Of a stretch of DNA of 33,941 nucleotides, positions 2,578 through 33,406 are shown piece by piece. The DNA is from Pirellula sp. (GTDB lineage: Bacteria > Planctomycetota > Planctomycetia > Pirellulales > Pirellulaceae): NCBI GenBank assembly GCA_025459355.1, contig JALOQS010000073.1, forward strand, positions 1 through 33,941. The letters are read 5' to 3'. The notes beneath the pieces are model-generated. The model did not search any database and was not told where the DNA came from. It worked only from the letters and a program-made list of their open reading frames with translations. Numbering within the stretch: position 1 is the stretch's first letter; each line of letters starts with the position of its first letter. The translations under genes and the position numbers were made by a program.

Positions 2578-2623
2578 TGAGAGTGCTGGGACTCGAACCC
2601 AGGACCAACGGATTAAAAGTCCG
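2578..2623. repeat. Left attachment core (46 bp, tRNA-Lys 3' remnant)
   Basis: Identical over 46 bp to 13917-13962. It is the tRNA-Lys 3' part on the minus strand (discriminator base to the anticodon stem) but lacks the D arm and 5' acceptor strand, so it is not a functional tRNA. Confidence 0.93.
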
Positions 2624-2764
2624 GTGTCGATCAATGGAAAGCAAGGCTCAAAGGATCGTATGGCACCATATTGGCACACTGACCCGCGTTTAGAAGCGAT
2701 CGTCAAGGCGTGGCCGGGACTCGATGAGGACGCTAAAACCGCGATTGCCGACATGGTGAAATAA
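2624..2764 (+). other. Displaced integrase C-terminal tail (exon-like end of the 12580 integrase)
   Basis: The frame that crosses the left core continues for 46 codons to a TAA at 2762-2764 and includes DPRLEAIVKAWPGLDEDAK. Across the core it reads the same frame and residues as the integrase at 12580, so in the excised circle it forms the integrase C-terminus. In the integrated state it has no integrase upstream and is probably untranslated. The same D-P-x-L...A-W-P signature occurs at 33176-33346. See the integrase entry for the arithmetic. Confidence 0.85.
2661..2677. repeat. Candidate integrase arm-type site (left)
   Basis: TGGCACCATATTGGCAC occurs here and identically at 13779-13795. 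Each copy holds two TGGCAC hexamers 11 bp apart. In the circle the two copies would flank the attachment core in the same orientation. Confidence 0.55.
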
Positions 2765-3040
2765 ACTTCCGGTTGCCGACTTAACCCCCTCAGGATGCCG
2801 CATGCTGGGCCTGTACGCTTGCGCGCGAGCTGCTTCGTGGCAAGTTTGCCATGTTGGACACTGGGGAAGGTTGTAGGGCCGTTTGAGCGATTGGGCTCCA
2901 ATTGGCGTTTTGATGTTGCGGCGAATGTGGCAAAATTAAGTTTCTGGGCATGGGAGTAGCTATCCCGTCGAGTGGTCCACCTTCTTGAACCTATGCGGGG
3001 GGTGGGCCAGTCGGCCCATTCATCAACATAGGTATCTCGA
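2765..3040 (+). other. Non-coding leader with nested hairpin
   Basis: I see no convincing gene in this 276-bp stretch. Just before the ATG at 3041 there is a two-part hairpin: an outer stem ACCTATG/CATAGGT (2989-2995 with 3027-3033) enclosing TGGGCC/GGCCCA (3003-3008 with 3013-3018). It could fold in the 5' leader of the downstream gene. No clear promoter hexamers were identified. Confidence 0.4.
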
Positions 3041-3853
3041 ATGCAACCCAATAAACTCTTTCCCGTTAGGGTGGGCGAGCTCTTTCGTAACGCGCTTGCT
3101 GTCAAACGCTCCGCCACTGAATCCGCTCACGATGAGTTGTATGGGCTTCCGGGCGACCGAGTTCCGTATGGTTGGCGTCAGGTCGAACAGGAGCTATCTA
3201 GTAAGTTCTCAAAGTCACCGCGGACCATCGATGAAATTATCGGGCTTCTTCGCGAGTGGATAGAGTTTTCTATCTTTGTGATGCGTGAAAGGTTCGACTG
3301 TCGTCCTGTTTTGAGCATGAATAAAGACGGCGATCCTGTGGTTTCGTTCGATTTGGTCGCAAAGGGGAACCCGTTCTCAGTCCCGCCGGAAGATCATCAG
3401 GCATGGTATTTGAAATGGCTTAAGGAAAAGACTCAGCTACTCGAGATTGAGTACAACGATTGGGGACAGTATTGGCGTGAGACTATTGAGAGCGATGAAA
3501 CGCGAAGAAACGTCTTTCTAGCGATGGAGCTTGGAGATGCGTTGGAACTGCTAGGGCTGAGTGCTGGAAAGGCCAAAAAGCCTAAAGCAAGCTTGTCTGC
3601 ATTGGAGCTTAAACAACAGCGGAACGATTGGTTGCTTTCGATGAGAGGATTGGGTGATCAGGCGAATTATTCAGCCAAGGAGTTAAGCGAATTGCTTCTC
3701 AAGAAATGTACGGAAGAGGATCTTTCCTGGAGTTGTATCGAGGCTAAGAGCATCAACGACGCCTTGCGTGAGGCGTATAAGCGACAAAACAAAACTGAAT
3801 GGCCATTTGACGATCGAGGCCGAAACAACAAGAAAGCCAAGCGTTCTCAATAA
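3041..3853 (+). CDS. Hypothetical protein, 270 aa
   Basis: Unrecognised. It is soluble and highly charged, with no signal peptide or membrane segment. The first third contains a YGWRQVEQELSSKF segment and likely amphipathic helices. The middle is acidic and aromatic (YNDWGQYWRETIE). The last 80 residues are Lys/Glu-rich and end in a strongly basic tail (NNKKAKRSQ). It is the first gene of the tRNA-Lys element on the plus strand, separated from the next gene by about 100 bp, and is preceded by a structured leader. The ATG has no good Shine-Dalgarno sequence. Its position next to the excision and replication genes suggests a control or cargo role, but nothing in the sequence fixes a function. 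Confidence 0.7.
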   Translation: MQPNKLFPVRVGELFRNALAVKRSATESAHDELYGLPGDRVPYGWRQVEQELSSKFSKSPRTIDEIIGLLREWIEFSIFVMRERFDCRPVLSMNKDGDPVVSFDLVAKGNPFSVPPEDHQAWYLKWLKEKTQLLEIEYNDWGQYWRETIESDETRRNVFLAMELGDALELLGLSAGKAKKPKASLSALELKQQRNDWLLSMRGLGDQANYSAKELSELLLKKCTEEDLSWSCIEAKSINDALREAYKRQNKTEWPFDDRGRNNKKAKRSQ

Positions 3854-3956
3854 TCTTGAAATGCTGAAACACCCATTTCGAGTCAGGCGATTTCGGTATT
3901 TAGCTTAGCATCGCAAATTATGCACTTCCGTTTCTTTAGCCTCGGAGGTGTCTTAA

Positions 3957-4130
3957 ATGCAGTTGAATGTTTTAGATCTTAATGCGGTAGCCGAACGCAT
4001 TATCGCCAACCAAAGGGAACGCGAATATCTCAAGAAACTCTTCCGTGTTTTGCAGGAAGGTAAGCGTCTAGGCGTTCTGCCATCGATCCAAAAGGAGGTT
4101 CGCGATGAAAGCGACTCCGAAACACGATAA
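3957..4130 (+). CDS. Small protein, 57 aa, overlapping the HTH gene
   Basis: A short frame beginning MQLNVLDLNAVAERII and ending at a TAA at 4128-4130. It has an excellent ribosome binding site: GGAGGTG sits 8 nt before the ATG. It overlaps the next gene (start 4105) by 26 bp in another frame, so the two may be translationally coupled. The product is mainly one charged amphipathic helix (NQREREYLKKLFRVLQEGKR), perhaps a coiled coil. No family is recognised. Support rests on the ribosome binding site, codon-like composition and context; a non-coding reading remains possible. Confidence 0.6.
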   Translation: MQLNVLDLNAVAERIIANQREREYLKKLFRVLQEGKRLGVLPSIQKEVRDESDSETR

Positions 4131-4314
4131 GCCGTCTGAAACAGAGAAGATTGGCCTCACGATGGATGAGTGCGCCGAATTGCTCGGTGTTAGCCCGCGA
4201 TCGATTTGGACCCTAATCAACACTGGTGAGCTGCCCTCGTTCCGGGTGAGGCGAGCGGTTCGCGTCCTGCGTGAGTCCCTGGAAGAGTTCGCCAGAAACG
4301 GCGGCACGCGATAG
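4105..4314 (+). CDS. Excisionase-family HTH protein, 69 aa
   Basis: A single small winged helix-turn-helix of the excisionase/MerR-like type: MDECAELLGVSPRSIWTLIN is the helix-turn-helix and GELPSFRVRRAVRVLR the wing, followed by a short helix. Proteins of this size and layout bind attachment-site DNA and direct excision, or act as regulators of the integrase module. The start has a good ribosome binding site (AAAGGAGG, 4091-4098). It is followed within 90 bp by a second gene of the same kind, so one may be the excisionase and the other a regulator; the sequence alone does not say which. Confidence 0.85.
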   Translation: MKATPKHDKPSETEKIGLTMDECAELLGVSPRSIWTLINTGELPSFRVRRAVRVLRESLEEFARNGGTR

Positions 4315-4400
4315 GGAAATCGCAGGATTGACCGTTTTTTCGTTTTCTGGATTCTTGGGAATGCGTTAGGGATTTTTGTTGCTTTTTTGGGGAACAGAGT

Positions 4401-4604
4401 ATGACAGTGCAGCAATTGGTTCACACCGTGAATGAAACATGCGAGGTGCTAAGGGTATCGCGAACGACTCTTCGTGCCCTAGAAGAAACCGGCGAACTTG
4501 TGCCAATCCGTATAAGCCAGCGGGCTGTTCGGTATCGCCGAGAAGATATCGAACGCTATCTGAAATCGCTCGCTACGAAAAGGAAATCAAGATGCAAGAA
4601 ATAA
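4401..4604 (+). CDS. Second excisionase-like HTH protein, 67 aa
   Basis: Same architecture as the 69-aa protein upstream but clearly diverged: helix-turn-helix around TCEVLRVSRTTLRALEETGE, wing at ELVPIRISQRAVRYRREDIE and a basic C-terminus (KRKSRCKK). The basic tail should strengthen DNA binding. A G-rich segment (GGGGAACAGAG) precedes the ATG. Its last 13 bp overlap the start of the 128-aa gene at 4592, so it heads the long overlapping replication operon. Likely role: recombination directionality factor or repressor of that operon. Confidence 0.85.
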   Translation: MTVQQLVHTVNETCEVLRVSRTTLRALEETGELVPIRISQRAVRYRREDIERYLKSLATKRKSRCKK

Positions 4605-4978
4605 AAAAAGGCCAGGGCGCGCCAACGCCGATGACCTCCGTAGTCCCGCCAGGGATACCGGCTAATGTTATCCGCCTATTGCCAAATAGTCCACCGATTT
4701 CTTCGGAGAGACTGCGGATCATGTCCCAGCTACCGTTACATCTCACATGGGGCGTCAAGCTATGGGCGTCCAACCACAATAATCATCGGGCAGACGATCC
4801 CAGTTGTGATTGCTACACATGCATGCACGCAACTTTCCTTGGCGATCAGAAGCGTCGTGAAATCGCATCGGCTCTGACTGATGAAATCCGCAGTGCCTCG
4901 TTTGGCTCCCGCGCCTTCGGGGATGATGTGATAGGTTGCGACGAACTCCGCTTCGTAAACGCGGAGGTGCGCCGATGA
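4592..4978 (+). CDS. Hypothetical protein, 128 aa, Cys-cluster
   Basis: The frame is open further upstream, but I place the start at the ATG at 4592 because a purine-rich AAAAGGAAA lies just before it and upstream starts would overlap the HTH gene extensively. The product has a Pro-rich N-terminus, then a HLTWGVKLWASNH segment and a CDCYTCMH cluster (DDPSCDCYTCMHATF) that could hold a zinc ion. The family is not recognised. Its stop overlaps the prim-pol start as ATGA, giving translational coupling, so it probably works with DNA replication. Confidence 0.72.
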   Translation: MQEIKKGQGAPTPMTSVVPPGIPANVIRLLPNSPPISSERLRIMSQLPLHLTWGVKLWASNHNNHRADDPSCDCYTCMHATFLGDQKRREIASALTDEIRSASFGSRAFGDDVIGCDELRFVNAEVRR

Positions 4979-5994
4979 TCACCGAGTTAGTCAATCAGGT
5001 TACGGAAACCCCGCTATTTCTGCTTGCATGTCGCTATGTCGATGCGGGCTACTCTGTCGTTCCATTGCGATTAGATGGCACCAAATCCCCGGCTATATCC
5101 AGCTGGAAGGAATACCAAACCCGATTACCAACCATAAACGAATTGGGAACTTGGTTCGAGATACCACGAGGGATTGGCATTTTAACCGGTTCCATATCCG
5201 GCGGGCTGGAAGCCATTGACTATGACATGGCCGTTTTGAAGGATCCTCATTTGTCGCTGCTACCATCAGATTTGGTAGCAAGGCTGGCGGTCTACCAAAC
5301 ACCGAGCGGTTGGCATGTCATGTATAGATGCGACGAAGTCTGCGGTAATCGAAAACTAGCGATGTGGGAGGCTCCTGCGAGCGTTTCGCAAAAGGATAAA
5401 GGGTATCGGGATGGCACTGAGCTTCAATCGATCGGGAAGGGAGTAAGGATCGAGACTAGAGGCGAAGGTGGCTACGTGGTTGGTGCAGGTTCCCCATTGC
5501 ATGTTCATCCATCCAAACGACCGTATCGACACCACAGCGGGCCGACATTGTTCGAGCTTGGCAAAATCACCCCCGAGGAGCGGAAGTTGATTTGGCAAGC
5601 AGCAATGAGCTTTGATTGTGGTATCGATCACGAAGCCGAGGCACGAAAACGCGGATTAGCGAAAGCAAGGCGGCTGCACTATGGCACCCAAAAGACTGAT
5701 ACCTCTACACCCTGGGATTGGTACGACCGTTTTGGTAGCTGGGATGACGTCCTAACTGGGTGGGTGCGAGTATCTGAAAGTAAGTTCCGAAGACCGGGAA
5801 AAACGCATGGCATTAGTGCGAGTCTCGTCGAAGTTGATGGCGTCGAACTTTGTACCATTTTTAGTACTTCGGTTGACGTTCCAAGTGGTTCGTACGGCAA
5901 GTTTAATCTGCTTGCGAAGCTACGCTTCAATGGCGATAGGCGCGAAGCATGCAAGCACGTTCGTCAACTTATGGCAGGGAGGGCCGTTGCATGA
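4975..5994 (+). CDS. Bifunctional primase-polymerase (prim-pol) domain protein, 339 aa
   Basis: An archaeo-eukaryotic-type primase/polymerase of the kind used by plasmids and phage satellites to prime and extend at their own origin. The N-terminus shows the family pattern AGYSVVPLRLDGTKSPA (about residues 24-40), GIGILTGSISGGLEAIDYD (66-84) with the metal-binding Asp82 and Asp84, and YQTPSGWHVMYR (107-118) with the conserved His. A GEGGYVVGAGSP segment matches the later glycine loop of the domain. The helicase half seen in larger fusions is absent and is replaced by the ATPase gene next door. The start at 4975 overlaps the previous stop (ATGA) and has GGAGG 9 nt upstream, better than the upstream ATG at 4936. 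Confidence 0.88.
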   Translation: MITELVNQVTETPLFLLACRYVDAGYSVVPLRLDGTKSPAISSWKEYQTRLPTINELGTWFEIPRGIGILTGSISGGLEAIDYDMAVLKDPHLSLLPSDLVARLAVYQTPSGWHVMYRCDEVCGNRKLAMWEAPASVSQKDKGYRDGTELQSIGKGVRIETRGEGGYVVGAGSPLHVHPSKRPYRHHSGPTLFELGKITPEERKLIWQAAMSFDCGIDHEAEARKRGLAKARRLHYGTQKTDTSTPWDWYDRFGSWDDVLTGWVRVSESKFRRPGKTHGISASLVEVDGVELCTIFSTSVDVPSGSYGKFNLLAKLRFNGDRREACKHVRQLMAGRAVA

Positions 5995-6884
5995 TTACCG
6001 ACCCCTCAGAAGAGATCTACTCCGATATTGAGTACGAAGCTAAGCAAGATGAGCTGAAGAAACTCGGTCACGGATGGCTGGTTCCTAAATCGATACGAGA
6101 ATTGGCACTTGAGTACCCTAAGGATGACCCAATTTTAATCGATGGCTTGCTGCGAGTCGGGGAGACAATGAATGTCATCGCACCGCCCAAAGCCGGGAAA
6201 TCATGGATGGTTGCGATGTTAGTATTCTGCTTGGTAAACGGGCTCAAGTGGCTCGGCTATCAATGCACGAAATCGCGGGTACTGCTTTTCGATTGTGAGC
6301 TGAAACCCTCGACACTTCGTTATCGGTTGGAAACAGTGGCTTATCGCATGGGAGTAGATACCGATGGCGTTGACGTGGTTTCGCTTCGAGGTCGCAATAG
6401 CAGTATCAACGAGCTTGCTACCGAGATAAAGGCAAGCATCGAGCCAGGGAAGTATCAAGCGATTTGTTTTGATGCGTTGTACAGACTTTTACCGGATGGA
6501 GTCAGCGAAAACGACAATGCAAAGATGATGGCGATTTACAACAAGCTGGATGAAATCGCACATCACACCCAGGCGTCGAACATCGTCATACACCATGCCT
6601 CGAAAGGTAATCAGGCGGGAAAACACGTTACAGATGTTGGGGCGGGAGCTGGGAGCGTCAGCCGGGCAGCGGACACCCACATGGTCATTCGCGAGCATGA
6701 GTCAGAATCGATCGCAGTGGTGGATACTGTATGCCGATCCTTCATTAGTCCCGAGCGAAGGTCAATTCGTTGGCAATGGCCTTTGTGGTATTTGGATGAT
6801 GCGGAACCAGTCCTGAAGGGAACCAAACCGGAACCAACAAAGAAGAAGGCAAAGTCCTCGAATCCTTTTGAAGAGGACTTTTAA
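5991..6884 (+). CDS. RepA-like RecA-fold ATPase / replicative helicase, 297 aa
   Basis: AAA/RecA-fold ATPase of the RepA (RSF1010-like, AAA_25) group, expected to form a hexameric helicase on element DNA. Walker A is APPKAGKS (residues 64-71). A first acidic strand is RVLLFDCELKPSTLRYRL, Walker B is YQAICFDALYRLLPDG, and a sensor-like strand reads NIVIHHASKGNQAGKHVTD, followed by GAGAGSVSRAADTHMVIR, a motif order typical of the family. A basic tail ends in FEEDF. The ATG at 5991 overlaps the prim-pol stop (ATGA) and follows GGAGGG. Together with the prim-pol upstream and the iterons downstream it makes a self-contained replication module. Confidence 0.9.
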   Translation: MITDPSEEIYSDIEYEAKQDELKKLGHGWLVPKSIRELALEYPKDDPILIDGLLRVGETMNVIAPPKAGKSWMVAMLVFCLVNGLKWLGYQCTKSRVLLFDCELKPSTLRYRLETVAYRMGVDTDGVDVVSLRGRNSSINELATEIKASIEPGKYQAICFDALYRLLPDGVSENDNAKMMAIYNKLDEIAHHTQASNIVIHHASKGNQAGKHVTDVGAGAGSVSRAADTHMVIREHESESIAVVDTVCRSFISPERRSIRWQWPLWYLDDAEPVLKGTKPEPTKKKAKSSNPFEEDF

Positions 6885-7174
6885 TGGGCACCGACAGCGA
6901 AAAACGGTTTAAGCATGTAAATCACTTGTGCGACCATGTTATCAGGCATCTTAACCCGTCCCAGGGGCTCCTTCTTTTTATCGGCTGGCGCCATGCCGAC
7001 AAGTTGGGGGTATTCACTCTGTCACACAGCAGAATGGCGAAACACTCCGGCTTGTCAGTTCGTCATGTAAAGCGAGTTGTTGCTGAGCTAGTAGCACGCC
7101 AAGCATTAAAAGTGCTCGAAGAAGGCGGCGGTACTCGCCCCGCCACATACAAAATCACTGGGAAATGGGAATGA
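6884..7174 (+). CDS. Winged-helix DNA-binding protein, 96 aa
   Basis: The ATG shares its A with the TAA of the ATPase gene. The product has an N-terminal basic segment, a helical region and a clear helix-turn-helix: FTLSHSRMAKHSGLSVRHVK with a recognition helix RHVKRVVAELVARQALKVL and a wing at EEGGGTRPATYKIT. This is the layout of GntR/MarR-like or RepC-type winged helices. Its place between the helicase and the iteron cluster, in the same operon, suggests an origin-binding protein (RepC-like initiator) or an autoregulator. Which of these is inference. Confidence 0.8.
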   Translation: MGTDSEKRFKHVNHLCDHVIRHLNPSQGLLLFIGWRHADKLGVFTLSHSRMAKHSGLSVRHVKRVVAELVARQALKVLEEGGGTRPATYKITGKWE

Positions 7175-7383
7175 AGAACTTAACAAAAGCAGTTGAGAAG
7201 CTTTGCCAGTACGACTCATGGACGGACGCCGAGCGCATTCGTGTCCTAGTTGAGACTCTCGACAATCTCAATAACGGGGATGCCTTAGCGTACCTGGACC
7301 ACTGGATGGCTAAGGCAAGGCCGTTGCTAGTGGTGACACCGGCGACACCAGTAAGTGGTGACATGGGCGTCACTACCCAATAG
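7171..7383 (+). CDS. Small hypothetical protein, 70 aa, whose 3' end is made of iterons
   Basis: I choose the ATG at 7171 because it overlaps the preceding stop as ATGA, the rule in this operon; an ATG at 7165 is also possible. The first 45 residues are helical (KNLTKAVEKLCQ, AERIRVLVETLDNL). The last 20 (from PLLVVTPATP on) are encoded by the first two iteron units, so that part is probably a by-product of the DNA sites. No family recognised. Confidence 0.6.
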   Translation: MKNLTKAVEKLCQYDSWTDAERIRVLVETLDNLNNGDALAYLDHWMAKARPLLVVTPATPVSGDMGVTTQ

Positions 7384-7442
7384 GCGGCAAACCAGTGCTA
7401 GTGGTGACATGGGCGTCACGCTAGTGGTGACATGGGCGTCAC
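7326..7442. repeat. Iteron cluster (3 good copies and 1 degenerate, 23 bp)
   Basis: Two 23-bp copies are perfectly tandem at 7397-7419 and 7420-7442. A third at 7351-7373 differs at two positions near its left end, and 7326-7349 is a degenerate fourth copy. The shared core is GTGGTGACATGGGCGTCAC, which contains the inverted arms GTGAC and GTCAC around ATGGGC. All copies point the same way. Position right after the prim-pol, helicase and winged-helix genes is typical of a plasmid-like replication origin or an operator of the initiator. Confidence 0.85.
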
Positions 7443-7461
7443 CCATACATAAATACAGAGC

Positions 7462-7486
7462 GAACACGGGCTTTTGGCCCGCGTTC
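7462..7486. other. GC-rich hairpin next to the iterons
   Basis: Arms GAACACGGGC (7462-7471) and GCCCGCGTTC (7477-7486) pair with one mismatch around a 5-nt loop. No T-run follows on the plus strand, so it is not a normal terminator. A short A/T-richer stretch (7441-7460) separates it from the iterons, which fits an origin layout. Confidence 0.5.
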
Positions 7487-7515
7487 TCTGGGCAAAAAAC
7501 AAAGAGGCAAAACCG

Positions 7516-7692
7516 ATGCAAATTACCATCACGCTAACGACTCCCCCAAGCTACCCGCCACCCGAGCCGGACCAATGGCAGCGGCTACGGAAGGTCCTTA
7601 AAGCCCTTTTGAGAATTCACGGACTCAGATGTATCGACATTCGGCGAGAGGATACAGATAGCTCGGTACGCACAGAGGAACCAAAACAATGA
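7516..7692 (+). CDS. Small hypothetical protein, 58 aa
   Basis: Starts MQITITLTTPPSYPPPEP after a purine-rich AAAGAGG and ends in an ATGA overlap with the next gene. It has a Pro-rich N-terminus followed by a basic helix (WQRLRKVLKALLRIHGL) and an acidic end. Placed between the iterons and the terminase-like gene. No family recognised. Translational coupling and ribosome binding site are the main support. Confidence 0.62.
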   Translation: MQITITLTTPPSYPPPEPDQWQRLRKVLKALLRIHGLRCIDIRREDTDSSVRTEEPKQ

Positions 7693-8294
7693 GCGATGAA
7701 CAAAAACCCAAGCGAAACTCTATCCACAGGGAAAAACTGCACCGATGCACGCGGCAACGTCAGGAACGGTTGGAAAAAGTCGCCGATTACTACTTGAAGG
7801 GAAAGAGTTTTCGAACGATCGGTGAACTTGTCGGAATCAGCCACTCTCAAATTCAGCGCGACGTAAGCTTGTGCAAGCAGGAATGGGCCAAAGCAACTGC
7901 TCTTGGCATTCGAGCCTTGGCAAACAAAGAGTTGGCCAAATTGGATCAAGTCGAGGCCGAAGCATGGAGAGCCTGGGAGCGATCCCAAGCCAAGTTAACC
8001 GAAACCCTTCGGGAGCGAATCGAATCTACAGAAGGCTCGACACTAAAACGAGGCAAGCGAACAAAGCAGAGCCCGGGCGACCCCGCATTTTTACAACTCG
8101 CATTACAGTGCATTAATCAGCGACTCAGGATCTTCGAGTTGATGCGAGCCGATGGCGGCGATGCGGATGACATCGTTGTCGAGGCCGTCGAAGTCATTGT
8201 CAAGAACCGCGAGGAGGCTCAGGGCATGTTGACTTATGAGCAGTTCCGAAAGATGGCAGACGATGCAGATTCCAAGAAAGGTGGTGACAAGTGA
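7689..8294 (+). CDS. HTH protein resembling phage terminase small subunits, 201 aa
   Basis: The N-terminal part is basic with a helix-turn-helix at YYLKGKSFRTIGELVGISHS followed by QIQRDV, like the DNA-recognition domain of many phage terminase small subunits and Homeodomain-like proteins. A long helical middle (LANKELAKLDQVEAEAWRAW) is a likely oligomerisation coiled coil, and the C-terminal 50 residues are acidic. The size also fits terminase small subunits. No large terminase gene is in the element, so if the assignment is right it would act by redirecting a helper phage's packaging, as terS does in phage-inducible islands. Alternative: a plain transcriptional regulator. Confidence 0.6.
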   Translation: MSDEQKPKRNSIHREKLHRCTRQRQERLEKVADYYLKGKSFRTIGELVGISHSQIQRDVSLCKQEWAKATALGIRALANKELAKLDQVEAEAWRAWERSQAKLTETLRERIESTEGSTLKRGKRTKQSPGDPAFLQLALQCINQRLRIFELMRADGGDADDIVVEAVEVIVKNREEAQGMLTYEQFRKMADDADSKKGGDK

Positions 8295-10210
8295 CAATTA
8301 CCATTGCCAGCCAGCCGGTCCTAGTCGATCACGACGGGAGCTTGCAAGCTTGGGTCGACACCTTCCTGAAGACGTGTGACCAAGATCAGTTTTGGACGCC
8401 GGAACCGTGGTTACGATCCTCCGGCGATTTTAAGGATGATGACAGCCTTTTCGAATCAAACTTGCCTCAGTTGCCACCAATCAAGCTCGGTTGTGTTCAA
8501 TGGCCTGCCGTAGGCTGCTATCGTTTTGCTCGTGGATTGTTTGCGGTCGATCGAGTTGCTTTGCGAGGCATTACCGAAGCAGCTTGGGGCGTAGCTTGGA
8601 ACACAGACGGGACGTTCCCTATCGGTTGGACGCAATCCGCGACTAATGCAGTCTCAGTACTCATCCAAAGAGGGGTGATACCTGAAGACAATTTTGCGAT
8701 TCGAATGCATCCGCTACCGCCGATCCAAGTCAGTAATGATTGCTGGATTATCCGGCTCGTGGATGCAAGGTATTACCTGAGAGCGTCCATTGGACGGCTA
8801 CAACCCGCACCGACTTGGCAGTCTTTGTTTGCGTCAAGTGCTAGTCGATACAACGTGCTGAACATATCGAATCCTGCCTCAGTGGGATATAACCCTCCAC
8901 CGATTGAAGCTTTGACGCCCGATGGTGCCTTTTTTCGTTGCCGCACAGTGCCGGAAGCGTTGATGATTGATGCGGCCGTTTTCACTCTGGGTTGGCGTCC
9001 GGTTGTACCATGCCGACAAACCAGCGGCGCGGTCGTAGATGTTGTGGCACAAGGGCCGACAGCCGCGAGTATTACGCGGGCCTCGTTGCTTAGTTTACCG
9101 AGCATCACAGGCGGATGGTCAACCGTTAGAACTTTGCCGAGATCGTTCATTATGACGTTTCATCAGGCTTGGTCATTCTACGGCCAAATGTACAAGCGAA
9201 TCGTAAAGTCAGACCCGACGGCGACTAACCGGCATGGGGCTGGTTTGAATACGCAATGCACACTGTTGAATCATGTTCAAGTTGACTCCAACGGGTTTCA
9301 TACGCTCGAGCCTAACTCTTTGGCATTAAGTGCCTTCGCAGACTACATCTACCTGCTGCACCTTCAATCGAACGGGTGGAATCAGCACGAGCATTCAATA
9401 GCGATACCAGGATTGATTGAAATTGTTCCTAGTGGTCACGATGACTATATCGAATGGGACTGTTCTACATCCGGGCCGGTCACGAGGGTAAAGTCCCTTC
9501 CGAATACGTTCATGCCTCGGTGTCTGTTCCCGCAGCATGCAGTGCCGAGTGCGCCGCAATCCGAGTACGCTTGGTGGTATTCAACTCACGATCAGACAAT
9601 GGCAGCAATTGCCTTAAATGACTCCGAACCGGGCGTATGGGACCAAGACAACGAAGCATGGCAGAAACAGTTCACGAGTGTTCAGCTAGTAGACAGCGGG
9701 CTGTTATTGCCAAACGCTACACCGACTACCAAACTAGCCTTTGCAGGGGTTAAAGCTCTAGTTGCTCGCAAGAGCGCGATCAAGGCTGGCGAAAGCTTGC
9801 TGGTTCACTTCGTCAATCAGATTGTGTTTAAGCTGGTCGATGGCGTAACGCCAAACGCTCCGAAAGTCCCTGTTTTTGAAATCTTCCGAGGATGGGTTAT
9901 TGGTGAATCCTCGACACAAAATCGAGAGGTGATTTTTAGCTGTGAATTAGTCACGACGGAGGCGGACACCAATTCTCCCTACGCGGGGGTTAAGTATGCG
10001 TCTGGTACTGTAATTTGGGCTACAGAGCCAGATTTGATCGGTGAAGTGATTGATGCCTACGACCATTGGTGCATTCTCGATCTAAGCCCTTCTGCACACG
10101 AAGGGCAGCGAATGATTGCAAGCTGGGGTGTTGCCGATTCAACCGCCAGCGGGGTACCTCCGGGAACCAAAACGCCTTTTCATTGGGGCTTAACGGACAG
10201 ATGTTGCTAA
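8291..10210 (+). CDS. Large unknown protein, 639 aa
   Basis: GTG start overlapping the previous stop (GTGA). It is the largest gene of the element and I do not recognise it. The protein is rich in Trp, Pro, Ser and beta-type segments, with no signal peptide, transmembrane helix or nucleotide-binding motif, and ends in Cys-Cys. Notable stretches are GRLQPAPTWQSLFASSASRY, the aromatic HQAWSFYGQMYKR, and a C-terminal block (EIFRGWVIGESSTQNREVIF to ATEPDLIGEVIDAYDHW). The beta-rich composition would suit a structural or surface protein, but this is only composition. It and the following 147-aa gene are adjacent on the same strand between a terminase-like gene and a recombinase promoter. Confidence 0.8.
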   Translation: MTITIASQPVLVDHDGSLQAWVDTFLKTCDQDQFWTPEPWLRSSGDFKDDDSLFESNLPQLPPIKLGCVQWPAVGCYRFARGLFAVDRVALRGITEAAWGVAWNTDGTFPIGWTQSATNAVSVLIQRGVIPEDNFAIRMHPLPPIQVSNDCWIIRLVDARYYLRASIGRLQPAPTWQSLFASSASRYNVLNISNPASVGYNPPPIEALTPDGAFFRCRTVPEALMIDAAVFTLGWRPVVPCRQTSGAVVDVVAQGPTAASITRASLLSLPSITGGWSTVRTLPRSFIMTFHQAWSFYGQMYKRIVKSDPTATNRHGAGLNTQCTLLNHVQVDSNGFHTLEPNSLALSAFADYIYLLHLQSNGWNQHEHSIAIPGLIEIVPSGHDDYIEWDCSTSGPVTRVKSLPNTFMPRCLFPQHAVPSAPQSEYAWWYSTHDQTMAAIALNDSEPGVWDQDNEAWQKQFTSVQLVDSGLLLPNATPTTKLAFAGVKALVARKSAIKAGESLLVHFVNQIVFKLVDGVTPNAPKVPVFEIFRGWVIGESSTQNREVIFSCELVTTEADTNSPYAGVKYASGTVIWATEPDLIGEVIDAYDHWCILDLSPSAHEGQRMIASWGVADSTASGVPPGTKTPFHWGLTDRCC

Positions 10211-10231
10211 CCATTTTATTTGAGAAATACC

Positions 10232-10675
10232 ATGAGTAATGACCCATTCCTACGAGAGCAAAACAAACAAGGCTTTGTTGGGCGCGTAGAAACCAAGCTA
10301 GATCAGTTGCCTATTGCAAAGTTGCAGAAGTTGCATGAGTACGCATTTTCGGCGATCACCAAAACGACTAAGGGTGAATACTCGTGTAAAGTTCATCTGT
10401 GGGAGTTTGTTCCTAGGCAAGCAACTCTTGTCCCTTATCAGTTGGGATTTGTTGATCTCCAGTGTCCGCATGATTCGGTTGAAGCGATCAACGCGGATGT
10501 GCTGCTAGAGGAGTTTGAGCTTTTCACAATCGTTACGGCTCAACTGGGGCGGCTCAAGGTGGCCGGTCTTCACGCCGTGTTTTCCAAGAACGAAAACTCA
10601 GTTGGGTGCATGCTTCGAATTCAATTCACGGCAATCAAGCAAAACGAAATCACGTTCAACATGATGGGGATGTAA
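10232..10675 (+). CDS. Unknown protein, 147 aa
   Basis: Follows the 639-aa gene by 21 bp, most likely in the same transcript. Start at the ATG at 10232 (an in-frame TTG at 10220 is possible). The N-terminal half is helical and basic (KLDQLPIAKLQKLHEYAF). The rest alternates short beta-like segments (YSCKVHLWEFVPRQATLVP). No family recognised. Pairing with the 639-aa protein suggests a joint role. Confidence 0.72.
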   Translation: MSNDPFLREQNKQGFVGRVETKLDQLPIAKLQKLHEYAFSAITKTTKGEYSCKVHLWEFVPRQATLVPYQLGFVDLQCPHDSVEAINADVLLEEFELFTIVTAQLGRLKVAGLHAVFSKNENSVGCMLRIQFTAIKQNEITFNMMGM

Positions 10676-10750
10676 TCCGTGATGTGGACACGACCGCACG
10701 GTGTTGTACATGGAAGTCAGAAAAAAAAGATATTTTTTGTCATGGCCGGC

Positions 10751-10779
10751 TTGTCAAATAACAAGCATAGGTATATCAT
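10751..10779 (+). promoter_or_regulatory. Sigma70-type promoter of the serine recombinase, with inverted repeat
   Basis: TTGTCA (10751-10756) and TATCAT (10774-10779) are separated by 17 bp, 35 bp before the ATG at 10814. The -35 lies in an inverted repeat CTTGT/ACAAG (10750-10754 and 10761-10765), a possible operator. AAGGA follows as ribosome binding site. Confidence 0.65.
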
Positions 10780-10813
10780 CTACTTGTCACCCAACAATTA
10801 AGGATAACCCGCC

Positions 10814-11494
10814 ATGAAATCAGCCGTAGCCTACATCCGAGTCTCGACCGACGACCAAGCCAACGAAGGGGTATCACTCGATGCCCAGGAAGCCAAGATT
10901 AAGGCTTGGGCACTCCTTAACGATTACACGCTCGATCAAGTGTTTGTTGATGCGGGCTTGTCGGGTGGCAGAGCGGACAACCGCCCGGGCCTGCAAGCAG
11001 CACTCCAAGCCGCATGTAAAACAGGCGCGGCTCTTGTGGTCTACTCGCTAAGCCGTTTGGCTAGATCAACTCGGGACACGATCGCAATTAGCGAACGACT
11101 CGACAAAGCTGGTGGCGACCTAATTTCACTAAGCGAGAAACTTGATACGAGCAGCGCAAGCGGAAAGATGATCTTTCGTTTGATGGCCGTCTTGTCGGAG
11201 TTTGAACGCGATCAGATCTCCGAACGAACTAAAATGGCCTTAGGGTACAAGAAATCATGCGGAGAGCGAGTAGGGACAATCCCGTATGGGTACGACCTAG
11301 ACACGGATGGAGTCAGCTTGGTTCCCAATGAAATTGAGCAACAAACTATTTGGATTATCCAGGAACTACGAGCGCGTGGCTTATCGCTACGAGCGATTGC
11401 GACCGAGTTACAGAACCAGGGCAGACCAACCAAGAAAGGAAATCCAAAGTGGACCCACACGAGCGTAAAGAGCATTCTCGAGCGAGTGGCTTAG
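10814..11494 (+). CDS. Serine recombinase / resolvase, 226 aa
   Basis: Serine site-specific recombinase of the resolvase/invertase group. The catalytic Ser11 lies in AYIRVSTDDQANEG. LVVYSLSRLARSTRDTI supplies the active-site arginines, and MIFRLMAVLSEFERDQISER is the conserved region leading into the long E helix. The C-terminal part (RVGTIPYGYDLDTDG and RARGLSLRAIATELQNQG) is a short Recombinase-type DNA-binding segment with a helix-turn-helix. It is shorter than large serine integrases, so resolution of element dimers, inversion or a regulatory switch is more likely than integration. It has its own promoter and ribosome binding site (AAGGA). It is the second recombinase of the element beside the tyrosine integrase. 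Confidence 0.92.
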   Translation: MKSAVAYIRVSTDDQANEGVSLDAQEAKIKAWALLNDYTLDQVFVDAGLSGGRADNRPGLQAALQAACKTGAALVVYSLSRLARSTRDTIAISERLDKAGGDLISLSEKLDTSSASGKMIFRLMAVLSEFERDQISERTKMALGYKKSCGERVGTIPYGYDLDTDGVSLVPNEIEQQTIWIIQELRARGLSLRAIATELQNQGRPTKKGNPKWTHTSVKSILERVA

Positions 11495-11667
11495 AGTCCC
11501 TCACGACGGAGGAGCTGCTTGAGCGGCTCCGAAAAACGAATCAACAGCCGCCCATTCCTGGAAAGCAGACCTTAGGTGAATATCTGAATGAAGAAATCGA
11601 AAAAGAAGATCGACATGACGCTAGCGGACCAACTCCGCGAAGCGATGGCAGCGAGCGGCCTAACTAA
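11449..11667 (+). CDS. Possible small overlapping gene, 72 aa
   Basis: A GTG at 11449 preceded by AAAGGA (11435-11440) opens a frame that overlaps the end of the recombinase gene by 46 bp and the XRE gene by 80 bp. The product is very acidic and helical (LTTEELLERLRKTNQQ, LGEYLNEEIEKED) with a Ser/Pro-rich end. It might bridge translation of the two neighbours. The double overlap makes it doubtful. Confidence 0.35.
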   Translation: MDPHERKEHSRASGLESLTTEELLERLRKTNQQPPIPGKQTLGEYLNEEIEKEDRHDASGPTPRSDGSERPN

Positions 11668-11806
11668 CTATCGCATTTCCAAAGAGGCCGACATTGACCA
11701 AGCGGTTTTAAGCAGATTCGTTAGCGGAGAGCGAAATATCACGCTCGAGGTTGCGGATCGTATTTGCAAGCTCCTAGACTTGGAGTTCAGGAAGCGAGAA
11801 GAGTAG
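11588..11806 (+). CDS. XRE-family HTH regulator, 72 aa
   Basis: Cro/C1-type helix-turn-helix: LREAMAASGLTNYRISKEAD followed by IDQAVLSRFVSGERNITLEV is the canonical four-helix pattern with the recognition helix at QAVLSRFVSGER. The length covers just the DNA-binding domain. I keep the ATG at 11588 because AGGTGA lies 8 nt upstream; a second ATG at 11615 would give a 63-aa protein. It stands behind the serine recombinase and may repress element genes, like a lysogeny repressor or an antitoxin. No toxin partner is evident. Confidence 0.85.
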   Translation: MKKSKKKIDMTLADQLREAMAASGLTNYRISKEADIDQAVLSRFVSGERNITLEVADRICKLLDLEFRKREE

Positions 11807-11879
11807 TTTACGAAAATGGCCCCCGCGATGGTGGAACATCCGGGAGCCTTGGTCCCAAACTGTATTGGAGTTTAGAACG

Positions 11880-12197
11880 ATGGGTAAGATAACAGAAAAC
11901 ATCTCAGGCAAACACTCCGAACGTCGAATGAGACAGATTGGATGGTTGCTCCAGATGGCTGAGATAATCTCTAGTCGGCATTTTGGCATCACGCTTGATG
12001 AGCTACGGCGAGAGATGGATGAGGCGGGCGAAGCCGTTTGCGCTAGAACGGTCTACCGTTACGTGGGCTTGCTTGTGGACCTCGGTTATGTGCAACGCGA
12101 GGAGGTCTATCTAATGGACAGGCGTGCCATTCGCTATCGCTTCACCCGCAAGCTCCCTCGAACCTTGGTAGGAGCAGGCGGCGAGTGGTTCGCGTAG
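11880..12197 (+). CDS. Winged-helix transcriptional regulator, 105 aa
   Basis: ATG at 11880 after GGAG (11867-11870). The protein has an N-terminal basic stretch, then a helical region (RRMRQIGWLLQMAEIISS), a helix-turn-helix (ITLDELRREMDEAGEAVCAR) with recognition helix TVYRYVGLLVDLGYVQREE, and a beta wing with basic residues (DRRAIRYRFTRKLPR). This is the HTH_11/DeoR-type organisation. Overlaps the next gene by 13 bp. Likely an element regulator; the target is unknown. Confidence 0.8.
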   Translation: MGKITENISGKHSERRMRQIGWLLQMAEIISSRHFGITLDELRREMDEAGEAVCARTVYRYVGLLVDLGYVQREEVYLMDRRAIRYRFTRKLPRTLVGAGGEWFA

Positions 12198-12490
12198 ATC
12201 GAGCCAGTGCGATAGTCTGCTACCGCCAAAGCGTGCGTGAAGGCTTCAAGGTTCGCGTCAGGCAACTCTTTGTCGATGTTCTTGTGGGCAACTACGAAGG
12301 CGATTTCGTGATTGTTCGAAAGCAGGTCGCCTTTGATGAAGCGGAAGCGTTTCAACGTGATTGGCTAATGAATGAACGCGATGCGGTTTGCATTCTATGG
12401 CCTAGCGAAACGCTCATGCCTACCGAGTGGCGATTGGTGAACCCTGTTGACGGTTCCGCACAGGTCTTAGAGGAGCCTCACAAGGCTTAG
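12185..12490 (+). CDS. Hypothetical protein, 101 aa
   Basis: GTG start at 12185, 10 nt after GGAG, inside the end of the winged-helix gene, so the two are translationally coupled. The sequence mixes beta-like segments (VRQLFVDVLVGNYEGDFVIV) and an acidic helix (AFDEAEAFQRDWLMNE). No family recognised. It is the last gene before the tyrosine integrase. Confidence 0.65.
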   Translation: MVRVDRASAIVCYRQSVREGFKVRVRQLFVDVLVGNYEGDFVIVRKQVAFDEAEAFQRDWLMNERDAVCILWPSETLMPTEWRLVNPVDGSAQVLEEPHKA

Positions 12491-12579
12491 GTAGATTCCG
12501 GTCGAGTCAGGAGCGTCGATCATCAATTAACCGGCCATGCGTCTCGGAGTGGGCGTATGGCCTTTCAGGAAGTTATTCT

Positions 12580-14118
12580 ATGGCGGTGTACAAGCGATCA
12601 GGCGGAAAGACTTACTACTTCAATTACTACGATGAGAATGGTAAGCGACGTTTCAAGAGCACTGGGACGACTGACAAGCGAGCTGCCGAAGATATTGCGT
12701 CAAAGCACAAGACCGATGCGGCACTTCGTAAGCATTCGATCATTGATACAAAGGCGGAAGCCGCTCAAGATCTCTTGAACACAAAGATTGCCCCTCACGT
12801 CAAGGACTACGAGCAGTCGATGCGTAGCCGCAACGTGACTGAGAAGCATATTGAAACATCCATTGGTATGCTTGATAGGCTTATCGACTCAAGGGGTATC
12901 AAGACTCTTGAAGACTTTACCGGTGAAGCTGTTCAGGCTTTCATTGACGGGCTTGCAAATGCTGGAAGGGCTAACCGAACCATTCAATCGCACTTGCAAG
13001 CGATAAGGGCGTTTAGCAAGTGGCTGTTGAAAGCGAAGCGGATTCAGTTGGATCCTCTTGTTTCGATCGAGAAGCCAAAGTCATCCGGCGAAACGTCACT
13101 ATCGAGACGAGCTCTAACCCACGATGAGTGGACGTTGCTTGATGCGTATGTGCGATCATCACCAACAAGCTACGGAATGACAGGGCAAGAAAGGGCCTTG
13201 TTGTATGCCACCGCAATTCAGACTGGGCTCAGGGCCAATGAGTTGCGATCGATTCTGCGGGCGCATATGAATCTCACCGGAAAACAACCGTCCATTCTGG
13301 TTGAGGCGAAGAACACTAAGAACCGAAAGACCGCGAGGCAATACATTCAGCCTGAATTGGCGTCGGAGCTTTTAACTTTGACGGCGAAGAAGTTGGCGGG
13401 AGCGGCCGTGTTCCCGATGCCAAGTAAGTTCGATGTGGCCGACATGCTACGGAAAGACATTCTCAACGCTCGCGATCAGTGGCTTTCCACCTTTAAGGAA
13501 CCTCAAGCCAGGATCGAAGCCGAGGCGAGCGACTTCCTTCAGGTGCGAAACAGCCTCGGGCAGGTGGTAGACTTCCATTGTCTGAGGCATACGACCGCAA
13601 CTTGGCTCATTGAGGCGGGCGCCGACCCGAAGACCGTACAGAGCGTTTTGAGGCACTCTACGATAAAATTAACCCTCGATACTTACGGGCATCTCTTCCC
13701 CGGCCAGGAGGCTCAAGCGGTCGCAATGATCCGGCATCGGTTTAGCGACCCGCTCAGGGCGACAGGGACGGAAACCACTGGCACCATATTGGCACCGTTG
13801 GGACGCGAAACAGTGCCAATTCGTGCGAAACTGTGCGAGTCAGGCGAAAGCAGCCAACTGGCGAAAACCATAAAAAAACCCCTGGTTTCTCAAGAAAAAC
13901 CAGAGGTTTTATCGAATGAGAGTGCTGGGACTCGAACCCAGGACCAACGGATTAAAAGTCCGTTGCTCTACCGACTGAGCTACACTCTCCCGTTTTTTCT
14001 GCTACCGCACGGCTTTTCCGGCCACCTCGCGGCTTTTTCCGCCGCCAGACTGCGTCCGCCTCAAGATAACCATTCCCGACGACCAACCATTTCGATCAGC
14101 ACCGGGAATCTATCTTAA
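12580..14118 (+). CDS. Tyrosine integrase of the tRNA-Lys element; C-terminus crosses the attachment core
   Basis: Lambda-type integrase, 512 aa as read here. Residues 1-55 form the arm-binding region (MAVYKRSGGKTYYFNYYDEN), about 75-175 the SAM-like core-binding domain, and the rest the catalytic domain with Arg218 (TGLRANEL), His333 and Arg336 (HCLRH), His359 (LRHST) and Tyr369 (LDTYGHLF). The ATG follows AGGAAG. Odd: codons 447-461 read antisense through the tRNA-Lys 3' half (SAGTRTQDQRIKSP), and residues 462-512 are encoded by host DNA. In the excised circle the frame would instead continue 46 codons into 2624-2762, giving 507 residues ending with the A-W-P tail. The mRNA also runs antisense over the tRNA and its terminator. 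Confidence 0.93.
   Translation: MAVYKRSGGKTYYFNYYDENGKRRFKSTGTTDKRAAEDIASKHKTDAALRKHSIIDTKAEAAQDLLNTKIAPHVKDYEQSMRSRNVTEKHIETSIGMLDRLIDSRGIKTLEDFTGEAVQAFIDGLANAGRANRTIQSHLQAIRAFSKWLLKAKRIQLDPLVSIEKPKSSGETSLSRRALTHDEWTLLDAYVRSSPTSYGMTGQERALLYATAIQTGLRANELRSILRAHMNLTGKQPSILVEAKNTKNRKTARQYIQPELASELLTLTAKKLAGAAVFPMPSKFDVADMLRKDILNARDQWLSTFKEPQARIEAEASDFLQVRNSLGQVVDFHCLRHTTATWLIEAGADPKTVQSVLRHSTIKLTLDTYGHLFPGQEAQAVAMIRHRFSDPLRATGTETTGTILAPLGRETVPIRAKLCESGESSQLAKTIKKPLVSQEKPEVLSNESAGTRTQDQRIKSPLLYRLSYTLPFFLLPHGFSGHLAAFSAARLRPPQDNHSRRPTISISTGNLS
13779..13795. repeat. Candidate integrase arm-type site (right)
   Basis: Second copy of TGGCACCATATTGGCAC, identical to 2661-2677, lying 122 bp before the right core inside the integrase gene. 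An inverted hexamer GTGCCA follows at 13813-13818. These are candidates for binding by the integrase N-terminal domain. Confidence 0.55.
13872..13909 (-). terminator. tRNA-Lys terminator carried by the element
   Basis: On the minus strand, CCTCTGGTTT and AAACCAGGGG form a 10-bp stem (one G-T pair) and T7 follows, 8 nt after the tRNA 3' end. The sequence lies on the element side of the core and also encodes integrase residues (KKPLVSQEKPEVL) on the plus strand. So the element brings its own terminator for the tRNA it interrupts. Confidence 0.8.
13917..13962. repeat. Right attachment core (46 bp) within tRNA-Lys
   Basis: Identical to 2578-2623. Covers the tRNA from the discriminator base through the T arm, variable loop, anticodon loop and part of the anticodon stem, so integration restores a whole tRNA at this end. 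Confidence 0.93.
13917..13989 (-). tRNA. tRNA-Lys (anticodon UUU)
   Basis: Complete cloverleaf on the minus strand, 73 nt including the discriminator A. Acceptor stem GAGAGTG/CACTCTC, D arm GCTC/GAGC, anticodon stem ACGGA/TCCGT with loop CTTTTAA (anticodon TTT at 13954-13956), T arm CTGGG/CCCAG with TTCGAGT loop. CCA is not encoded. It is the integration target of the element, whose sequence supplies its 3' half and terminator. Confidence 0.97.
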
Positions 14119-26700: not shown

Positions 26701-26919
26701 TGCCGGAATAAGTTTTGGTTTTAGAAGCTCAGATTTTGGTTGAGTAGCGAACTAGTTTACCTTTGGAGGAGTCAATACACAACGAATAGAGGTAGAACGA
26801 AGTGGTCAAGAAGGAGGAACTTTGGGTCATTTTCTGGAAAGTGGCCTAGCGAAGGGAAAAGGAGTGGTGTAAATATTTGCGAATCACGGGCGGCGAACGT
26901 AGGTTTGAAGTTTGTGAAT

Positions 26920-26994
26920 CGGGGTGTAGCGCAGTCTGGCTAGCGCATCTGGTTTGGGACCAGAGGGTCGTAGGTTCGAATCCTATCACCCCGA
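26920..26994 (+). tRNA. tRNA-Pro (anticodon UGG), copy 1
   Basis: Full cloverleaf: acceptor stem CGGGGTG/CACCCCG, anticodon stem CTGGT with a loop carrying TGG and closing ACCAG, and T loop TTCGAAT. CCA is not encoded. Identical to the copy at 27001. Confidence 0.97.
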
Positions 26995-27000
26995 CTGAAT

Positions 27001-27075
27001 CGGGGTGTAGCGCAGTCTGGCTAGCGCATCTGGTTTGGGACCAGAGGGTCGTAGGTTCGAATCCTATCACCCCGA
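27001..27075 (+). tRNA. tRNA-Pro (anticodon UGG), copy 2, integration target
   Basis: Same 75-nt sequence as copy 1. Its 3' end is the attachment core whose partner lies at 33382-33406, so the island beyond it has supplied or restored the 3' end of this gene. A strong terminator follows at 27082. Confidence 0.97.
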
Positions 27076-27077
27076 CT
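27053..27077. repeat. Left attachment core of the tRNA-Pro island (25 bp)
   Basis: The 25 bp from the T arm to just past the tRNA 3' end are identical to 33382-33406; flanking bases differ. The same 25 bp also occur in copy 1 at 26972-26996. Confidence 0.88.
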
Positions 27078-27081
27078 GGAG

Positions 27082-27118
27082 AAAACCCTGCAATTCCCCT
27101 GGGATTGCAGGGTTTTTT
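27082..27118 (+). terminator. tRNA-Pro terminator on the island side
   Basis: A 13-bp perfect stem (27082-27094 with 27104-27116) closes a 9-nt loop and ends in six T residues. As at tRNA-Lys, it lies on the element side of the core and inside the integrase frame on the other strand. Confidence 0.9.
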
Positions 27119-27192
27119 CGTATACCTAACCGATCTAAAAGTCATGCCTATTTTGCCAGAAATTGACCAATTTTGACACGTAGAGTCAGTTT

Positions 27193-27214
27193 TTGGGGCA
27201 ACAGTTGGGGCAAC
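27193..27214. repeat. Direct repeat in integrase linker (candidate arm sites)
   Basis: TTGGGGCAAC occurs at 27193-27202 and 27205-27214, 12 bp apart, and encodes the VAPTVAP part of the integrase remnant on the minus strand. Spacing and place mirror the TGGCAC pairs of the tRNA-Lys element. No exact copy was found near the right end. Confidence 0.45.
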
Positions 27215-27436
27215 CAAACTTCCATCCAACGCGGACGAGTCACTCGTCCCGGTCGCTACCATAGGCTCCATGATTGGTTGTGCTTTCAAGTCAAATGTGG
27301 GCAACGACTCAAAGGCCCCAACAATGTCCAAAAGCTTCGGGTCGGTGCGAGCCTACGATGGCAGCCCGAACAGCAATTACGCAGTAAGATCTCCCTGTAA
27401 AAGTGAATTCTGTCCACCGCGCAGTCTGCCAGACGC

Positions 27437-33175: not shown

Positions 33176-33346
33176 TTATAGCGATGGTAATCGCTGAACG
33201 AAATCAGCTGCTAGCACACCAAGGATTTGGAGCTTGGTTTGGTCTGAGAGCGAAGGCCAAGCGGCGATGATAGTTTGAAGCTGAGGGTCAGTTGTTGCCT
33301 GTTTAGGACATTTGCAGCGCCCGGGGTATGCGAAAAACCGCAAGTT
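33176..33346 (-). pseudogene. Separated integrase C-terminal tail of the tRNA-Pro island
   Basis: The minus-strand frame reads CPKQATTDPQLQTIIAAWPS and then LSDQTKLQILGVLAADF to a TAA (33176-33178). It has the same D-P-x-L-x-x-I-x-x-A-W-P-x-L signature as the tail at 2624-2764. The frame that crosses the adjacent core (VGVIGFEPESNS) is offset, so one frameshift separates tail and core. This is decayed, like the rest of the integrase. Confidence 0.72.
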
Positions 33347-33381
33347 TCACCGTGTAAAGTACTTAGCTTAGAATTCGATTC

Positions 33382-33406
33382 AGGTTCGAATCCTATCACC
33401 CCGACT
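33382..33406. repeat. Right attachment core of the tRNA-Pro island (25 bp)
   Basis: Perfect copy of the tRNA-Pro 3' end (27053-27077) without the rest of the tRNA. Marks the original, displaced 3' end of the tRNA. Confidence 0.88.

Follow-up and report, generated by a model that had tools for sequence, protein, structure and literature searches.

The choice of an integrase between integration and excision is usually ascribed to separate excisionases. In the integration-dependent immunity of mycobacteriophages, the core lies in a coding gene whose product is changed by integration, the gene being that of the repressor and not that of the integrase. In phage Mx8, attP is located in the int gene and the integrase is altered, not inactivated, by integration, and Mx9 follows a similar principle (excerpt of PMC6070905). 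Islander makes provision for the integrases of Mx8 and SSV, which reach across attP (excerpt of PMC4383910). In the archaeal suicidal integrases the att site is found inside the gene, integration partitions the gene and the split enzyme might be inactive; according to the excerpted text, such integrases occur exclusively in archaea (PMC8371274). A halovirus coding sequence also spans attP and its product is possible only in the circular form, but this sequence, which has the integrase gene on one side and a CxxC gene on the other, does not encode the integrase itself (excerpt of PMC7911831). None of the literature matches listed, which were limited to open-licence PMC articles, concerned planctomycete integrases with an internal att site, and the excerpt of PMC12884075 contains nothing on them.

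We analyzed a stretch of 33,941 nucleotides of a Pirellula sp. (the window), which is one whole contig of a 5.1-Mb genome in 459 contigs. The window contains an element of 11.3 kb bounded by two identical copies of a 46-bp core (positions 2578-2623 and 13917-13962; 46/46 bases). The element body (2624-13916, no strand assigned) encodes, according to Pfam and PHROGs, a Prim-Pol (4936-5994), an AAA ATPase (5949-6884), small HTH-like proteins, a serine resolvase (10814-11494) and a tyrosine integrase. Soon after the Prim-Pol and AAA genes, at 7326-7442, four iteron-like 23-bp repeats (GCTAGTGGTGACATGGGCGTCAC) are found, a possible replication origin of the free circle. The core at attR (13917-13962, plus strand) lies in the integrase frame and at the same time forms the 3' part of the target gene, a tRNA-Lys(ttt) which was detected by ARAGORN on the minus strand (13917-13989) and which is intact, its 3' part being restored by the core of the element. 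The copy at attL (2578-2623, plus strand, 46 bp) is the displaced 3' fragment of the tRNA. The element thus has the arrangement of a tRNA-targeting genomic island, with an intact tRNA at one end, a displaced 3' fragment at the other end and an integrase in between.

The tRNA-Lys insertion point is, judged from sequence comparison, an ordinary host site. Among 24 other genomes that carry the 714-aa host gene flanking the element, 11 same-genus loci were read, and a tRNA-Lys was close to the orthologue of this gene in 9 of them. One same-genus genome has an integrase stretch that is 59% identical to the integrase of the window (G025:C252:8892-9287) near the orthologue of the host flank gene (G025:C252:6431-8341). 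Just beyond attL, a second tyrosine integrase (408 aa, PF00589) is encoded on the minus strand at 1196-2422; as it is located outside attL, an older island may make up the left flank.

The integrase gene of the element is element-encoded up to and through the core (12580-13962, plus strand, 461 aa). Its product matches Phage_integrase (PF00589) with an E-value of 1.2e-13 and a score of 51.7 bits, against a curated cut-off of 27.1, and a PHROG integrase family with an E-value of 2.7e-43. The motifs TGLRANEL (from residue 215), HCLRHTT (from 333) and LDTYGHLF (from 366) follow each other in this order, and we take them to be the catalytic Arg, His-x-x-Arg and Tyr motifs of tyrosine integrases. 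The core starts about 75 codons past the Tyr motif and the frame remains open throughout the core. In the integrated form the frame is open from 12580 to 14118 and gives 461 + 51 = 512 residues and a stop, the C-terminal extension (13963-14118, plus strand, 51 codons and stop) being host-encoded and without the conserved module described below. When the two ends are joined at the core, the frame continues into a circle-specific tail of 46 codons and a stop (2624-2764, plus strand), resulting in a circle form of 461 + 46 = 507 residues which ends in DPRLEAIVKAWPGLDEDAKTAIADMVK and stops at 2762-2764. The earlier note on this DNA, which had proposed from the letters that the core lies inside the integrase frame, proved exact in these counts. 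The end of the tail (2675-2761, plus strand) consists of a conserved segment, HTDPRLEAIVKAWPGLDEDAKTAIADMVK, which we refer to as the AWP module (profile match 3.3e-16, with a model that includes this row).

As in the archaeal suicidal integrases of the SSV type, the att site lies inside the integrase gene and the gene is broken by integration. Unlike in that type, all three motifs are located upstream of the core, the catalytic domain remains whole and only the C-terminal module is lost; by the position of the motifs, the breaking up of the catalytic part that characterizes the archaeal enzymes does not take place here. Open stretches of at least 46 codons begin at 28% of the start points on the plus strand of the window and at 21% of those on the minus strand. 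An open tail of this length is not rare and is weak evidence in the window alone, and relatives were therefore needed. Searches with the single tail sequence elsewhere in the same genome gave weak matches (E-values of 0.02 and 0.15).

In addition to the loci from the scan described below, 80 regions of up to 20 kb were used. The other end of the element was sought at 166 loci (160 without six duplicates) and was in view for 35; many of the remaining loci reach the end of the contig or the limit of the DNA taken. The 35 element pairs came from four rounds (12 + 12 + 1 + 10), and an 18-bp GC-rich repeat in L047, which is without a tRNA, was left out of the pairs. Of the 35 pairs, 29 have a frame of 390 aa or more that runs into the core, and this frame agreed with that of the tail in every case (29/29, versus 0/58 for the other frames). 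The chance of this outcome if frames were random is (1/3)^29 = 1.5e-14. All 29 elements differ over the 200 bases before the core; the pairwise identity of the integrases ranges from 13 to 92% with a median of 23%, L204 and L211 being the pair with 92%. Two further elements are decayed and have short frames (L060, 115 aa; L172, 134 aa), of which the tail frame is still the longest, and four (L072, L089, L178, and L214) do not fit, having no in-frame join and no frame of more than 226 aa at that position. A chance open frame, possible when the window is considered alone, is ruled out by the frame agreement of the relatives. The expectation that the joined ends of related elements give an open frame was thus borne out in 29 of the 35 pairs, with 4 of 35 that do not fit. 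Tails were sampled as modules with a repeat upstream, meaning that the presence of the module in the 29 is by construction and that elements whose tail is of another kind, or whose core lies past the module, fall outside this sample.

The 29 elements occupy 14 kinds of site, namely tmRNA and the tRNAs for Val, Met, Glu, Ser, Lys, Ala, Leu, Cys, Phe, Thr, Arg, Asp and Asn. Five of the sites are tmRNA sites, one of which (L103) was assigned by sequence likeness only, and L213 is the sole element with the tRNA in sense orientation. All three phases of the tRNA relative to the tail are used (1, 18 and 7 of the 26 assignable elements), and the tail is still in frame. The Phage_integrase cut-off of Pfam was passed by all six integrases of relatives that were submitted and by that of the window. 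The AWP module was absent from the tails on the attR side (0/29, the window and 28 others). Of 20 elements, four (the window, L053, L103, and L159) have an integrated form that exceeds the free form in length, indicating that the change is a swap and not always a shortening. In both L043 and L216, a junction with a neighboring element takes the place of the host site at one of the joined ends. The integrase side was also checked independently of the module. Ten homologues of the window integrase were taken from the 36 integrase matches listed outside the window (L239, a fragment with a stop, is not among the ten, and L237 is the same element as L055); a tRNA was found at the 3' end of all ten, and nine of them run open into it. 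L216 contains three copies of a tRNA-Leu core, near 494, 7351 and 12925 in oriented coordinates, and at the middle copy the integrase continues into another tail, which is not of the AWP type.

The AWP module is about 30 aa long, is located at the end of the circle-only tail and can be written as DPxLxxVVxAWPxLPExIRAGILAMVRA. A first search of 60 relatives yielded weak matches only (6/60 genomes at E ≤ 0.1), several of which come after a stretch that reads like an antisense tRNA (GFEL, GLER or GLEQ, for example). At E ≤ 0.01, a profile of eight tails had matches in at least 91 of the 146 genomes sampled from the order, and a profile of thirty tails, at E ≤ 0.001, in 44 of the 199 sampled from the phylum. 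A scan with one genome per species gave 156 relatives with the same tail; the best 80 of these 156 were kept and are, by record title, mostly Planctomycetota, with a few Chloroflexi, Actinomycetes, Deltaproteobacteria and Zipacnadia. Carriers of the module include Adhaeretor mobilis HG15A2 (L131) and Paludisphaera soli JC670 (L121). Six duplicate loci (L068, L080, L095, L124, L140, and L149) were dropped, as were three weak matches that lack a tRNA (L044, L046, and L047), which left 137 tails, of which 136 are distinct in DNA (L085 and L100 share identical module DNA). The Trp is present in all 137 tails and two key Leu residues in 134 and 133, the consensus being PIDPDLAAVVDAWPTLPEAIRAGILAMVRA. 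A T-arm motif is found within 270 bp upstream of 103 of the 137 tails, versus 121 of 2312 random stretches from the same loci. The suggestion in the earlier note that the circle-specific tail is a conserved domain, and that relatives should carry an A-W-P tail, therefore holds across the order and the phylum.

No AWP module was detected in cultured phages. Plasmids gave three weak Sinorhizobium matches at an E-value of 2 and, in a further plasmid search, none. The module had no match by sequence in the PDB, and the tail had none in NCBIfam and none above threshold in Pfam, where one tail frame gave a sub-threshold match to DUF4690. The widespread conserved AWP module appears to be new. Within the window, the module is also present at 33209-33295 (minus strand) in a second, decayed element which extends from 27001-27077 to 33209-33406. 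In this element 25 bases of the 3' end of a tRNA-Pro (27001-27076) are repeated, as read by eye, in a fragment at 33382-33406, and a frame at 26846-27331 (minus strand) reads into the tRNA-Pro and resembles an integrase C-terminus. The element looks dead because of stops between the module and the tRNA fragment.

The planctomycete elements share with Mx8 the position of attP in the int coding sequence and the new 3' end which int acquires on integration (excerpt of PMC6070905). The tail of Mx8 Int is, however, unrelated to the AWP module: it had no match, and the best-matching stretch of the protein was residues 146-155 with an i-Evalue of 0.11. Thus, the Mx8-type anatomy of a core in frame and a new C-terminus is present, whereas a homologous C-terminal segment is not. 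Ahead of its tail, Mx8 Int has the peptide STGLEPV, which resembles the antisense reading of a tRNA. Whereas Mx8 is one phage, here one module is found across a phylum at many tRNAs and at tmRNA. On the basis of these comparisons, the planctomycete integrases are counted as similar to Mx8 in principle and not as members of one lineage with it. The earlier note had set the alteration of the integrase itself apart from the known truncation of mycobacteriophage repressors; the swap of the C-terminus stands, but an altered integrase has precedents in Mx8 and, with a similar principle, in Mx9 (excerpt of PMC6070905). The principle is known, and what appears new is the conserved module and its spread across the phylum.

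Contiguous frames that join integrase and module were found in 4 of the 11 virus-contig loci with the module, representing three distinct elements. L067 contains such a frame of 533 aa, and L225 and L226, which are the same phage in two metagenomes and are identical over 10,175 bases, contain one of 498 aa. A test for circular permutation between L225 and L226 was negative, as L225 ends after the tail. The third is a contig of 9200 bp (L064) with an exact end overlap of 99 bp, as is expected when a circular molecule is assembled; across the junction runs a frame of 580 aa which contains the integrase, the tRNA reading and the module. In an integrase-family search of five virus records, L064 and L067 matched, while L063, L065 and L066 have the module and no integrase in the record. 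The L067 integrase matched no virus contig other than itself, the L103 integrase matched no virus contig and the L053 integrase matched no plasmid. The 155 chromosomal module frames (161 minus six duplicates) were searched with an integrase profile, and a full integrase was found in the module's own frame in one of them. This natural full-length integrase-module frame (L043, oriented 134-1801) lies at a tandem junction of two elements and takes its tail from the neighboring element. Four other frames contain integrase fragments (L045, 254 aa; L150, 167 aa; L151, 137 aa; L087, 132 aa) in the order integrase, tRNA reading, module, and these look like junctions or remnants of neighboring elements.

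Direct repeats shared by the tail DNA and the 3' end of the integrase gene, taken as its last 420 bases upstream of the core, were also searched for. The longest one in the window, TGGCACCATATTGGCAC, occurs in the integrase coding sequence at 13779-13795 (plus strand), 138 bases before the core, and on the tail side at 2661-2677 (plus strand), 37 bases after the core, and none of 100 codon-block shuffles gave a repeat as long. In 16 of 22 elements a direct repeat was equalled in at most 5 of 100 shuffles; the starts of these 16 repeats fall 114-175 bases upstream and 37-56 bases downstream of the core. The other six elements are without a significant arm repeat, and inverted repeats passed an equal cut-off in 3 of 22. 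Several of the repeats consist of two half-sites of 6-8 bp that are 12 bp apart from start to start. L056 and L184 share the half-site GCGGCGCA, L156 and L179 share CTTGGCG, and the window has TGGCAC with a spacing of 11 bp. The repeats look like arm-type sites to which integrase would bind, and the whole attP, comprising the core and the putative flanking arm sites, appears to lie within the 3' part of the integrase gene.

Starting from the gene anatomy, the frame agreement, the conservation of the module as protein and the fused genes in virus contigs, all of which are read directly from sequences, we infer that translation continues past the core, that the module has a role and that its loss changes the activity of the enzyme. 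The placement of attP inside int would then act, as we consider probable, as a built-in state switch in which the AWP module is lost on integration and returned on excision. In the free circle, the gene would be read through the core and the arms into the module, giving an Int-AWP protein that would be the integrating enzyme in a newly arrived circle. Integration cuts the gene at the core: the chromosome retains the catalytic part, ended by whatever DNA follows, and the AWP segment stays at the far end of the element, separate from its integrase. The integrated form, without AWP, may be weaker or changed in its preference, much as the earlier note had proposed a lowering or redirection of activity, and the reaction would thereby restrain the reverse step for as long as the module has not been restored and no full-length copy is present in a tandem or incoming element. 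Excision would rejoin the frame and restore the fusion. The product of the reaction would thus edit the enzyme, with one small module accompanying the free form across elements whose tRNA and tmRNA sites are of 14 kinds, which gives a directly testable switch.

The near-complete separation of integrase and module on chromosomes (full fusion in 1/155), together with the variety of sites and integrases, is what speaks most strongly for a selected switch and against compact packing alone. A module that is always needed could have stayed on the near side of the core. This argument is no proof, since elements with the core beyond the module would be harder to find as pairs and since the same anatomy fits a model of suicide and compactness. 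In that model AWP is needed for all activity, integration inactivates the enzyme, excision needs full-length integrase from a tandem or incoming copy, and attP lies in the gene because a cassette of gene and site is easily exchanged. The data fit an AWP needed for all activity equally well, the tandem junction of L043 does regenerate a full-length gene, and archaeal suicidal integrases have been argued to act in this way (excerpt of PMC8371274). Nevertheless, the catalytic domain is whole in the integrated form, unlike in the archaeal split integrases, and the altered Mx8 enzyme remains active (excerpt of PMC6070905), and we therefore regard inactivation by integration as unlikely, if worth keeping in mind.

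In the structure model of the L067 protein, which as a whole is weak (mean pLDDT 64.9, pTM 0.40), residues 373-489 have a pLDDT below 50 and are followed by helices at 495-502 and 509-521. The module is modeled as these two helices with block-mean pLDDT values of 75-89. The att DNA thus probably encodes a disordered stretch or flexible linker in the predicted protein, which may explain why any tRNA is tolerated in any phase. A fold search of the PDB returned lambda Int and other tyrosine recombinases first, the best rows having low TM-scores, and nothing attributable to the module. A short C-terminal module of two predicted helices after a low-confidence linker could also be a stability or partner tag, marking the protein for a host protease or docking a regulator without a direct role in recombination, so that integration would change the protein level and not the chemistry. 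An HTH_3 regulator with an AWP-like C-terminus (L207, 262-915) is in line with such a tag, but it is the only regulator of this kind that was found and its match is weak (E-value 1.1e-4), and we consider the tag very improbable. The same regulator hints at a portable docking module. A wider form of the state switch, in which integrases across the phylum sense the free or integrated state of their element through their own sequence, with an att site in a disordered linker and a detachable two-helix docking module shared with other regulators, making direction a heritable and reversible property of the gene, is offered tentatively, and we lean slightly against it.

The remaining two readings have hardly any credit with us. 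The AWP segment could be a small gene of its own, or a neutral remnant beside attL, joined to the integrase frame by accident, in line with the ordinary length of the tail in the window, the three virus records that have the module without an integrase and the ATG that 8 of the 29 elements, the window included, have in frame between core and module; an ATG is, however, not conserved, being limited to these 8, and the separate gene was rejected, as the frame agreement (29/29 versus 0/58) and the contiguous fused frames of the virus contigs also argue against an accident. Conservation of the stretch as DNA, namely an arm or host-factor site with a frame that is open by chance, would suit the arm-type repeats in the tail DNA, but those of the 16 elements begin before the module or at its edge, and in the 14 conserved columns that remain when Trp and Met are set aside the information at codon positions 1, 2 and 3 is 15.5, 20.1 and 7.1 bits, the low third position pointing to selection on the module as protein, and the DNA-only reading was rejected on this ground.

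The proposed state switch in the integrase gene may yield integrases with a direction that a single short tail can determine. The gene anatomy also explains integrase frames that run into an antisense tRNA and short orphan frames with the AWP motif elsewhere in these genomes, and a module after a tRNA fragment offers a way to locate the ends of elements. One locus (L203) contains two AWP modules on one strand, at 2085 and 2490, about 400 bases apart, which are perhaps stacked element ends.
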